Shown: one piece after another, positions 43,995 through 51,787 of the stretch | How the letters are laid out: every line of letters starts with the position of its first letter | How positions within the stretch are numbered: the stretch's first letter is position 1 | NCBI GenBank assembly: GCA_946406015.1 | Contig: CAMJJD010000009.1 | Coordinates: 1 to 52,254, forward strand | Length of the DNA: 52,254 bases | Source of the DNA: an uncultured Bacteroidales bacterium | Lineage (GTDB): Bacteria > Bacteroidota > Bacteroidia > Bacteroidales > P3 | Reading direction: 5' to 3' | Position numbers and translations under genes: made by a program | Notes under the pieces: generated by a model | What the model was told of the DNA's origin: nothing | Database searches by the model: none | The model's input: only the letters and a program-made list of their open reading frames with translations

Positions 43995-45281
43995 ATGGAT
44001 TACGACGTTATTATTGTCGGTGCCGGCGCGGCAGGTCTGATGGCCGCCATAACCGCCGCCGAACGCGGTCGGCGTGTACTTCTGCTCGAAAAAATGGACC
44101 AGGCCGGACGCAAACTGCGCATTACCGGCAAAGGCCGATGCAACCTCACCAACACCAACACTCTGCGCGACACACTGCCCCATATCGGCAGTGACAGCCG
44201 CTGGATACGCAACGCCTACGGACGCTTCTTCAACCGCGAGTTGATGGACTTCTTCGAGCAGCGAGGTGTGGCGCTCACCGTGGAGCGAGGCAACCGCGTC
44301 TACCCCTCCAGCGGCAAGGCGCTCGACATCTTCCTGGCACTTATCAACGAGCTGGAAAGCAACCCCAACGTCACCATCCGCAAGAACTGTACCGTGAAAT
44401 CGGTAGGGACACGGCGTGCCGTGTCCGCAAGCGACAACGAGACGCCCGCAGCCCCTACTGAGGTGTCCGAAGTCGTGTTACAGAACGGCGAGCGTATCCC
44501 CTGCCGTCATATCGTGCTGGCCACCGGAGGCCTCTCCTACCCCACCACCGGCTCCACAGGCGCCGGCTACCGCATGGCCAAAGAATTGGGACACACCATC
44601 GTGGAGACAGTTCCCGCCTTGGTGCCCCTCAAATGCGAGGAGAAGATTCCCTACGAGTTGGTAGGCTTCCAACTGAAGAACGTACAGCTTTTTATCCGCG
44701 ACGGACAAACCACGCTATTCACTTCGGGTGTAGGCGAGATGACGTTCGTCGACGACGGTTTGGCAGGTCCCATCACACTCAGCGCCAGCCGAGTGGCCTC
44801 ACGCCTGCTCAATTCGGGCAATTCACCGTCAAACCTCACGGCCATCCTCGACCTCAAGCCCGGCTTGACCACAGAACAACTGGACAAGCGCCTCATCGCC
44901 GACCTCGACGCCAACGGCACACGCATCTTCAACGATGCCCTTCGCCTATGGCTCCCTGCCGAACTGATACCCCTGGCCCTGAAGCAACTGCATATAGAAT
45001 ACTACAAACGCCTCCACCAGATTACCGGCGACGAACGCCGTCGCCTGGGACGATGGATGAAAGGTGTAACCTTTACCCTCACCGGCACCCACGACTGGAA
45101 CGAGGCCATCGTCACCCAAGGCGGCGTAACCCTCGGCGAGGTGAATCCCAAAACCATGGAATCCAAGCTGGTGCAGGGGTTGTACCTCGTCGGAGAGTTG
45201 CTGGACCTCGACGCCGACACCGGCGGCTACAACCTGCAGCTGGCCTTTTCTACCGGCCATGCAGCCGGTATGGCGGTATAA
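43995..45281 (+). CDS. HI0933-family flavoprotein (BaiN/RdsA-like)
   Basis: 428 residues. The FAD-binding GxGxxG is at residues 9-14 ('VIIVGAGAAGLMAAI'). The family marks are 'RKLRITGKGRCNLTN', 'VLATGGLSYPTTGSTGAGY', 'GEMTFVDDGLAGP' and the C-terminal 'TMESKLVQGLYLVGELLDLDADTGGYNLQLAFSTGHAAG'. These flavoproteins are predicted oxidoreductases; members have been tied to bile-acid metabolism (BaiN) or rRNA maturation, but the native substrate here is unknown. Residues 137-154 ('VGTRRAVSASDNETPAAP') are an insertion encoded by a palindromic repeat (44403-44457), placed in a loop before 'VVLQNGERIPCRH'. The gene follows uspA by 5 bp. Confidence 0.9.
   Translation: MDYDVIIVGAGAAGLMAAITAAERGRRVLLLEKMDQAGRKLRITGKGRCNLTNTNTLRDTLPHIGSDSRWIRNAYGRFFNRELMDFFEQRGVALTVERGNRVYPSSGKALDIFLALINELESNPNVTIRKNCTVKSVGTRRAVSASDNETPAAPTEVSEVVLQNGERIPCRHIVLATGGLSYPTTGSTGAGYRMAKELGHTIVETVPALVPLKCEEKIPYELVGFQLKNVQLFIRDGQTTLFTSGVGEMTFVDDGLAGPITLSASRVASRLLNSGNSPSNLTAILDLKPGLTTEQLDKRLIADLDANGTRIFNDALRLWLPAELIPLALKQLHIEYYKRLHQITGDERRRLGRWMKGVTFTLTGTHDWNEAIVTQGGVTLGEVNPKTMESKLVQGLYLVGELLDLDADTGGYNLQLAFSTGHAAGMAV
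44403..44457. repeat. In-frame palindromic repeat, copy 1
   Basis: Begins GTAGGGACACGGC and forms a 9-bp stem GGACACGGC/GCCGTGTCC around GT; the far end is GCCCCTAC, the near-complement of the starting GTAGGGAC (7 of 8 bases). The second internal stem is decayed. It is translated V-G-T-R-R-A-V-S-A inside the HI0933-type flavoprotein. Compared with 51207-51282, the sixth base pair of the stem is C-G here and G-C there, a compensatory change. Confidence 0.85.
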
Positions 45282-50934: not shown

Positions 50935-51787
50935 CTTCGAACAGATTGAAGCCCTGGGTATCTCGCGCGAAGCCTACGACGAGGTGCTCGACATCGTGGG
51001 TCGCATCCCAACCATGGAAGAGCTCTCCACCCTGCTGGCCATGTGGGAGAGCAACGGCCGCCAACAGAGCCTATACGGTTGGCTCCGAGGACAGAAGCAC
51101 ACCGTCGAGCGCGACGAATACCTCTACACCGGTTCAGCCGACCACCGCAGCATCCGCGAGCCCCGCGTGAAGGACTGCCTCGCCATCGCCCAGCAACTCA
51201 CCCATAGTGTAGGGACAGGGCACGCCCTGTCCGCAGAAGAATGCACCTCCCACAGCGGACAGGGCACGCCCTGTCCCTACACCACAGGTATGCTGCTCTA
51301 CCTTGTGGGCAATGTCAGCACCGAGTTTGCCGACTCGGAGTACGCGCGTCGCTGCCTCCACCTGGTCGACCAACCTATGGGGGCCGGCGGCCATGAGGAA
51401 GACTGCCAGTATATCGAAATGATACTTGGCGCCCTGAGCGACGCGGGAATGCTCACTCCCGGCGGTGCCGTAGGTCATGGTGGGCTCTTCTGCTCGCTGT
51501 TGCGCTTCCTGTCCCCCACTCAAACAATCACACAATCACACAATCAAGCAATCGGTTTCGACATCCTTACACCCCGCGAGGTGCGCCTCGACGCATTCCT
51601 CTTCGGCGAAGAGGAGGGACGCTACCTGGTGGCCGTCGACGAAGGGCACGACGACCAGTTCCTACTGAAGATGGACGACGCCCGTCTCAACTGCTGCTTC
51701 CTCGGCCGCACCACCAAAGGCCGCATCCTCGTCGACGGCTACGACTTCGGCCCCGTGAGTCATTTCACAGGCGACCAAGCCAATTAA
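50915..51787 (+). CDS. PurL/AIR-synthase C-terminal-like protein
   Basis: 290 residues from the ATG at 50915, which overlaps the phosphatase end by 20 bp. The second half resembles the C-terminal domain of AIR-synthase/PurL proteins: 'LYLVGNVSTEFADSEYARRCL', 'GALSDAGMLTPGGAVGHGGLFCSLLRFL', 'RLDAFLFGEEEGRYLVAV' and 'GRTTKGRILVDGYDF'. No ATP- or FGAM-binding half is present, so it is a fragmentary relative, not a full PurL; function unknown. Two stretches look inserted: residues about 98-123, encoded by a palindromic repeat (51207-51282), and 'TQTITQSHNQA' from a period-8 array (51523-51554). Both keep the frame. It abuts the convergent sorting-domain gene. Confidence 0.65.
   Translation: MPEQPIDFEQIEALGISREAYDEVLDIVGRIPTMEELSTLLAMWESNGRQQSLYGWLRGQKHTVERDEYLYTGSADHRSIREPRVKDCLAIAQQLTHSVGTGHALSAEECTSHSGQGTPCPYTTGMLLYLVGNVSTEFADSEYARRCLHLVDQPMGAGGHEEDCQYIEMILGALSDAGMLTPGGAVGHGGLFCSLLRFLSPTQTITQSHNQAIGFDILTPREVRLDAFLFGEEEGRYLVAVDEGHDDQFLLKMDDARLNCCFLGRTTKGRILVDGYDFGPVSHFTGDQAN
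51207..51282. repeat. In-frame palindromic repeat, copy 2 (complete)
   Basis: Two 28-nt arms (51207-51234 and 51255-51282) are inverted copies matching at 26 of 28 bases, around a 20-nt spacer. Each arm also contains its own 9-bp stem, GGACAGGGC/GCCCTGTCC around AC. The outer ends are GTGTAGGGAC and GTCCCTACAC. The start is translated V-G-T-G-H-A-L-S-A, in the same frame as the copy at 44403-44457. Confidence 0.92.
51523..51554. repeat. Period-8 tandem array inside a gene
   Basis: Units AACAATCA (51523), CACAATCA (51531), CACAATCA (51539) and AGCAATCG (51547) run head to tail. They encode a Thr/Gln/Ser-rich stretch between two conserved blocks of the PurL-like protein. Confidence 0.85.

Follow-up and report, generated by a model that had tools for sequence, protein, structure and literature searches.

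In-frame GTAG-type palindromic repeats inside genes of a Bacteroidales genus

Two genes in the window, by which we mean the whole 52,254-nucleotide stretch analysed here, are each interrupted by a palindromic element that is read in frame with its host protein. To which class of repeat do these palindromes belong, and what could account for their presence inside coding sequence? An earlier note on this DNA had described both elements, proposed that they form one mobile family and placed them closest to the Rickettsia palindromic elements (RPEs). We examined the two copies, their relatives within the genome, the genus and other taxa, and the transposase genes that accompany them.

Structure and distribution of the element

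The element at 51207-51282 spans 76 nt and consists of a GTAG foot with a 20-nt palindrome, a 24-nt spacer and an inverted arm (Table 1). Its arms of 24 nt each match at 26 of 28 bases, as reported before, once 2 bases are added per end, and each arm forms a perfect 9-bp stem of its own around a 2-nt centre. The predicted RNA fold of the full 76-nt element has an energy of -55.5 kcal/mol (z -10.45), a value that none of 200 shuffles equalled. The shorter, partly decayed copy that had been noted at 44403-44457 is the same element, with a perfect first arm and a mostly lost second arm, shortened to ...CCCTAC (44453-44458); as a whole, 44403-44457 folds no better than chance (z -1.49). The forward arms of the two copies share phase 0 and encode VGTGHALS and VGTRRAVS, respectively, in line with the V-G-T-x-x-A-x-S pattern first seen in them. 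The two hosts are indeed unrelated, an AIRS_C/PurL-like protein and an HI0933-family flavoprotein, and orthologue alignments placed both inserts between blocks that are conserved among the orthologues of the respective host.

Table 1. Coordinates of the repeat copies and host genes in the window, and of RAYT genes lying in frame within host genes of the genus
Feature	Location	Strand	Remark
Whole REP doublet, head-to-head, REPIN-like, in frame in host gene 1	51207..51282		26/28 arm match; phase 0
REP arm 1: GTAG foot + GGACAGGGC/AC/GCCCTGTCC	51209..51232	+	read VGTGHALS
Inter-arm spacer, 24 nt	51233..51256		
REP arm 2, inverse, CTAC end	51257..51280	-	read GQGTPCPY
Host gene 1: AIRS_C / PurL-like, 290 aa	50915..51787	+	insert = residues 99-122
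REP arm GTAGGGACACGGCGTGCCGTGTCC	44403..44426	+	read VGTRRAVS
Spacer and remnant of second arm, CCCTAC end	44427..44458		fuller second arm in G001 and G065 orthologues
Host gene 2: HI0933-family flavoprotein (TIGR00275), 428 aa	43995..45281	+	insert from residue 137
Complete-looking RAYT in frame inside SpoU/TrmH methyltransferase	L091 787-2100 (G046); L380 1480-2760 (G047); L089/L381 (G065)		bounded by translated repeats
RAYT in frame inside WYL-domain regulator	L393 943-2733 (G027); L396 829-2523 (G021); L403 868-2559 (G079)		repeat peptides GTGTLPVS / STGFQPV
RAYT in frame at HAD phosphatase C-terminus	L394 751-2160 (G098); L408 1360-2922 (G034)		via VGTRTA repeats

The orthologues do not all carry these segments. 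The PurL-like gene had a match in 91 genomes of the genus, and among the 29 alignable loci of 30 fetched, the insert was absent from all 28 others. The HI0933-like gene had a match in 92 genomes, and upon aligning 30, we found a doublet in the same loop in 2 of the 29 others (G001 and G065) and none in the remaining 27; the insert-bearing loop is also shorter in PDB 2i0z. As both loops vary in length across the genus, the empty site is not exact. Elsewhere in the PurL-like gene, at about 51520-51556 of the window, ACAATCAC-like units make up another repeat read in frame.

The element belongs to a family with many copies. We searched the window's genome (G000; 2.2 Mb, 124 contigs, 80.6% complete) with the pattern GTAGGGACANGGCNNGCCNTGTCC, which itself includes the GTAG and leaves 2 stem positions free, at up to 3 mismatches, and obtained 28 forward and 24 reverse matches against 0 and 0 for the reversed-pattern control. 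As 13 of the 52 are other-strand readings of an arm already counted, the genome has 39 distinct arms in 24 places, and dozens of further arms thus accompany the window copies. The window itself holds 3 matches, all mismatch-free, where 0.37 are expected at up to 3 mismatches and 1 of 100 shuffles reaches 3. Many arms in the genome are paired as doublets, about 48 nt apart, and one-base variants of the GTAG foot are also present. The earlier proposal withstands both of the contrary observations that the note had named, as orthologues without the segment and further copies exist. The proposal of one mobile family thus stands for the single family and its many copies, while its mobility is something we infer rather than have seen as movement.

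The compensatory C-G versus G-C pair that had been noticed between the two window stems proved to be general: the free stem pair is complementary in 192 of 198 exact matches pooled from three sets, with arms readable both ways counted twice. It is Watson-Crick in 15/15 exact matches of G000, in 17/17 of sister species and, among the matches listed for other taxa, in 160/166. Without any pairing filter, 22 of the 31 GTAG-footed arms of G000 keep all 9 pairs, and both-sided changes occur at three stem positions.

The tight pattern matched in 8 of 99 genomes of the genus and in 9 of 190 of the family, and a wider stem pattern in 20 of the 99, with 44 matches in G001 (98% complete), 34 in G068 (99% complete) and 32 each in G000 and G065. 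Further afield, the repeat occurs in at least 117 GTDB stretches, under at least 80 record titles that include Clostridia, Spirochaetes, Anaerolineae, Ignavibacteria and cyanobacteria. By eye, the flanks of the GTAG foot revealed no consistent target-site preference.

Host genes, genic location and reading phase

We inspected 23 of the 24 places in G000, all but the one on contig C97, using the window and 19 retrieved stretches; of these, 12 lie within 11 plausible genes and 11, as judged by eye, outside clear genes. Nine of the hosts are supported by Pfam: the AIRS_C/PurL-like and HI0933 proteins, a peptidase C69, NamZ, three DUF6266 proteins, a beta-mannosidase with two doublets and a DUF4880 protein with three arms; the other two, a membrane-like protein (L037) and L050, have no Pfam family. 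Hosts in sister species, named from their Pfam matches, comprise a GltA-like reductase, TsaC, a PLP aminotransferase, an EEP nuclease, a transglutaminase, RadA, an alpha-2-macroglobulin (two sites), RnfD, GH92, an amidohydrolase, a PNGase F-like protein, HydF, MenG/UbiE, a SPASM protein, AsmA/DUF748 and DUF6266, and Pfam gave no family for L363 and L337. HydF, the GltA-like protein and the SPASM protein carry the insert between their annotated domains, and RnfD carries it close to its C-terminus. In L054 and L066, the inverse arm stands right at the start of a GH92 gene and may supply part of the signal peptide or the start codon. Sister species also contain other repeats read in frame, namely SQFSTLNSQFST (L101) and STRGQ[AV]LPTTHYPL[SP]T (L097, L065).

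To compare location with chance, we merged arms less than 150 nt apart, dropped elements less than 600 nt from a stretch end and scored as in-gene any element that lay in an open reading frame (ORF) of 200 codons or more and had 40 of them to either side; the ORFs ran from stop to stop and some are spurious, an error that the random-position control carries equally. In the genus, 42 of 65 elements fell in long ORFs versus 74% of positions drawn at random from the same loci, and 36 of 58 versus 77% when the DUF6266 loci (a hand-made list) were removed; the fetched G000 loci alone, window excluded, gave 8 of 15 versus 74%. Among the matches listed for other GTDB taxa, by contrast, 13 of 97 lay in long ORFs versus 69% of random positions (36/58 versus 13/97, Fisher p 7e-10), and in four of the in-gene cases there, the gene is RAYT-like. 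Elements of the genus are thus still mildly depleted from long ORFs (p 0.017; 0.007 and 0.004 at stricter ORF limits), while depletion in the other taxa is massive (p 4e-29). The repeat is predominantly extragenic in those taxa and not so in this genus.

The frame common to the two window copies recurs in other hosts. At distinct sites in hosts supported by Pfam or NCBIfam, the forward arm was in phase 0, which reads V-G-T-x-x-A-x-S, at 20 of 24 sites, in phase 1 at 4 and in phase 2, which is closed because of the TAG within the GTAG foot, at none; four or fewer of 24 has a probability of 8e-4 under two equally likely phases. This count merges orthologue-shared sites by hand and omits hosts without a family match (L037, L050, L058 and L335, all four in phase 0) as well as other arms in long ORFs (e.g., L373, L339 and L363). 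It also merges into two sites, as paralogues, seven further DUF6266 loci in phase 1 (L364, L365, L369, L370 and L376-L378); with the DUF6266 loci counted singly, the fraction becomes 20/31 (one-sided p 0.07), and the phase bias hence depends on the merging of paralogues. Of the four sites in phase 1, those in the EEP nuclease and Pth are near the N-terminus and may precede the true start. Inverse arms, with three open phases, were distributed 6, 5 and 13. Rare codons offer no clear account of the bias: Arg is least often encoded by AGG and AGA (5/163 each in eight window genes), but the favoured phase itself uses GGG and CGG, which are likewise uncommon.

RAYT-like genes and the class of the repeat

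We found the window's repeat associated with a RAYT-like gene in the same genus. In genome G046, this gene (L053, 1166-1711) is flanked by the repeat and contains an in-frame copy: one arm lies just before the start (1121+), a doublet lies inside the gene between HUH and Tyr (1418+/1501-), and a second, near-identical doublet lies just past the stop (1719+/1802-). Its protein matches NCBIfam REP_Tyr_transpos (E 9.5e-13, under the model's cut-off) and Pfam Y1_Tnp (E 0.0021, under the curated cut-off), with 4er8 TnpArep as the best PDB match (E 0.011), and it has the motifs NHIH and WQ along with YIENN followed by V. Using tblastn, we located RAYT-like genes near the repeat in six places; the other GTDB loci have five such genes beside it, with the repeat in frame, among the matches listed, in L184, L239, L257 and L266 and not in L232. 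Relatives of the G046 RAYT occur in 21 of 99 genomes of the genus, and with the G046 protein as query, none of its type was found in G000, G001, G004, G009 or G068. In G068, one-orientation repeat arrays stand at contig ends (L359-L362), so that the cluster was probably split during assembly, and a RAYT within it may have escaped the search.

Some relatives of the G046 RAYT contain in-frame repeats from other GTAG families, reading VEPFHETA (G072), VEPFYKTA (G035) and VGANDDSP (G065). The RAYTs L306 (G065), L307 (G072) and L309 (G035) contain their own in-frame GTAG/GTGG repeats, which start at a GTA or GTG codon, and two RAYT-like proteins of 472 and 395 aa (L092 in G065 and L095 in G001) have HUH and Tyr separated by a repetitive insert rich in VHGG. 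The sole Y1 protein of G000 by PF01797 (C40:685-1023, L032) was set aside as a mobiliser because of its Y---Q--HH motif, which is that of subclass 1.2 (Quentin et al. 2018, PMC6006769), and because it is flanked by palindromes of another kind, GGGGGTAGCGCCCCCG and CCCCTGCAGGGG.

Given the GTAG foot, the head-to-head doublets and a RAYT-like gene that carries the same repeat, the window palindromes are, judged from sequence, GTAG-type REP doublets of the REP/RAYT kind and not RPEs, the nearest kind named before. This kind is already known, and the unusual part is the location inside genes. REPs owe their name to their extragenic position. Di Nocera 2013 (PMC3733652) described GTAG REPs, head-to-head dimers and intragenic REPs, including GTAG/CGTC REPs and dimers within ORFs of O. 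terrae and R. conorii, where dimers and groups code for stretches of 20 to 30 amino acids; those REPs are mostly intergenic, and the parts of that paper at hand list no GTAG repeats for Bacteroidetes, no phase preference and, in the table, no transposase associated with CGTC repeats. A closer likeness is found in TnpAREP subclass 2.4 (Bertels group 4), which shares the GTAG foot, the long hairpin, the head-to-head doublets, repeats that flank the RAYT and lie in frame between HUH and Tyr, and the presence in Bacteroidetes, one of several groups where that subclass occurs (Quentin et al. 2018, PMC6006769). Its motifs are NH[IFV]H, WQ and YIxNNP, the last of which reads YIENNV in the G046 protein. 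The genus further differs in that unrelated genes show only a mild depletion of its elements and that several repeat-rich genomes lack the G046-type RAYT. With subclass 2.4 placed in Bacteroidetes, the earlier statement that no such family was known in Bacteroidales was not fully right.

RAYTs with repeat families other than the window's are themselves nested in host genes (Table 1). With the G046 SpoU-RAYT protein as query, 87 of 99 genomes gave a partial or full match, and a full-length, stop-free match was found in three (G046, G047 and G065). The same site holds repeat peptides only (GTQASRLH...) in G093 (L382) and G009 (L383), and a short unrelated loop with neither RAYT nor repeat in G000 (L389); the loop could be parsed in 16 of 30 fetched loci, 14 without a RAYT and 2 with one, the RAYT-bearing G065 not being among them. 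The WYL regulator is uninterrupted in 5 of 8 parsed rows, and in G027 and G079, judging by open frames, the stops in the matched stretches precede the likely start. Among the titles and abstract openings that searches of the open literature listed, none reported a host gene with a RAYT nested in its reading frame, or a genus where REPs hardly avoid genes.

Possible origins of the in-gene copies and their meaning

We consider it probable that the in-gene copies are REP doublets spread by a RAYT and kept, and translated, where they landed in frame in tolerant gene regions. A RAYT (an HUH/Y1 transposase, TnpAREP) would recognise the GTAG foot and the hairpin in single-stranded DNA and by cutting and rejoining could carry the doublet to new sites. 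TnpAREP has been shown to cut single-stranded REPs (Corneloup 2021, PMC8266576). Insertions that left the frame open in a tolerant loop or linker would be retained and translated, with one phase of the forward arm closed by its TAG, two open and V-G-T-x-x-A-x-S favoured at distinct sites; thereafter, arms would stay palindromic or decay by deletion, as may have happened at 44403. The RAYT-like gene with the same repeat in the same genus supports this account, as do the structure of foot, stem and doublet, the number of copies, the complementary free stem pair, the high in-gene share and the favoured phase. Presence also differs between species at one site: in the beta-mannosidase, the first doublet is common to G000 and G068, and the second is present in G000 and absent from G068, which has an unrelated 11-residue stretch there. 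Against it stand the near-complete genomes G001 (44 matches) and G068 (34), in which no G046-type RAYT was found; for these and for G000, mobilisation would need a missing, lost or different enzyme. Furthermore, in-frame doublets of 71 and 73 nt (L036) show that simple insertion of a fixed unit does not explain every case. The sub-cut-off scores of the G046 RAYT, the mild depletion from long ORFs that remains in the genus and the dependence of the phase bias on merged paralogues also weigh against it.

The repeat-rich genomes G001 and G068 would also fit an origin of the copies without a currently active transposase, through recombination or gene conversion among repeats already present, as would the DUF6266 genes of G001 and G065, whose similar, same-phase inserts resemble spread by gene duplication (Pfam was run on two). 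Conversion, however, requires a pre-existing copy, whereas the in-gene copies lie in unrelated genes, and the genus does have a RAYT-like gene with the same repeat; we regard this route as quite improbable. Somewhat less improbable, yet still unlikely, is that the in-gene copies have been domesticated, with selection acting on the peptide or on the hairpin, be it in mRNA or in single-stranded DNA. One phase is favoured, and sites shared between species suggest that arms are conserved beyond their host genes, a comparison affected by how the sites were discovered: in 5 of 9 comparisons the arms are identical at 24/24 positions with host DNA at 75-88% identity, the spacer of the mannosidase doublet has diverged between species with both arms unchanged, and the TsaC variants at one site differ (15/24 identical) yet remain nearly palindromic. 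But most shared sites came from the pattern search, which favours intact arms, and perfect 24-mers are common in some hosts (22% of windows in GH92 and 44% in menG). Arms also differ at 3/24 positions in the HI0933 and SPASM comparisons and at 1/24 in L335/L337, one HI0933 arm is mostly deleted in G000, and the PurL-like site is filled in 0 of 28 other orthologues. An RPE of the Rickettsia type, or an ordinary MITE, is highly improbable: RPEs do lie as in-frame palindromes within likely functional genes, but RPE-4 and RPE-6 of R. conorii bear a CGTC tag where the window copies carry the GTAG foot, RPE-1 is longer, the phylum is another one (Di Nocera 2013, PMC3733652), and the RAYT link favours REPs.

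Beyond spread by a RAYT, we would put at about even the chance that the REP/RAYT systems of this genus are 'coding-compatible' mobile elements. Their repeats would enter genes nearly as often as other sequence, at tolerated linkers and mostly in one phase, and whole RAYTs would transpose in frame into housekeeping genes, i.e., those for the SpoU methylase and the WYL regulator, with a fusion to the HAD phosphatase, to be made as unspliced host-transposase fusions. In other bacteria, the same repeat keeps clear of genes, which it hardly does in this genus, where it is read inside RadA-, TsaC-, HydF- and MenG-like enzymes. Such gene-tolerant repeats would make it possible to test directly how selfish DNA comes to supply proteins with loops and why one phase is favoured, and the host genes of sister species, found empty, with repeats only or filled with a transposase, offer a natural series of the entry of a mobile element into coding sequence.
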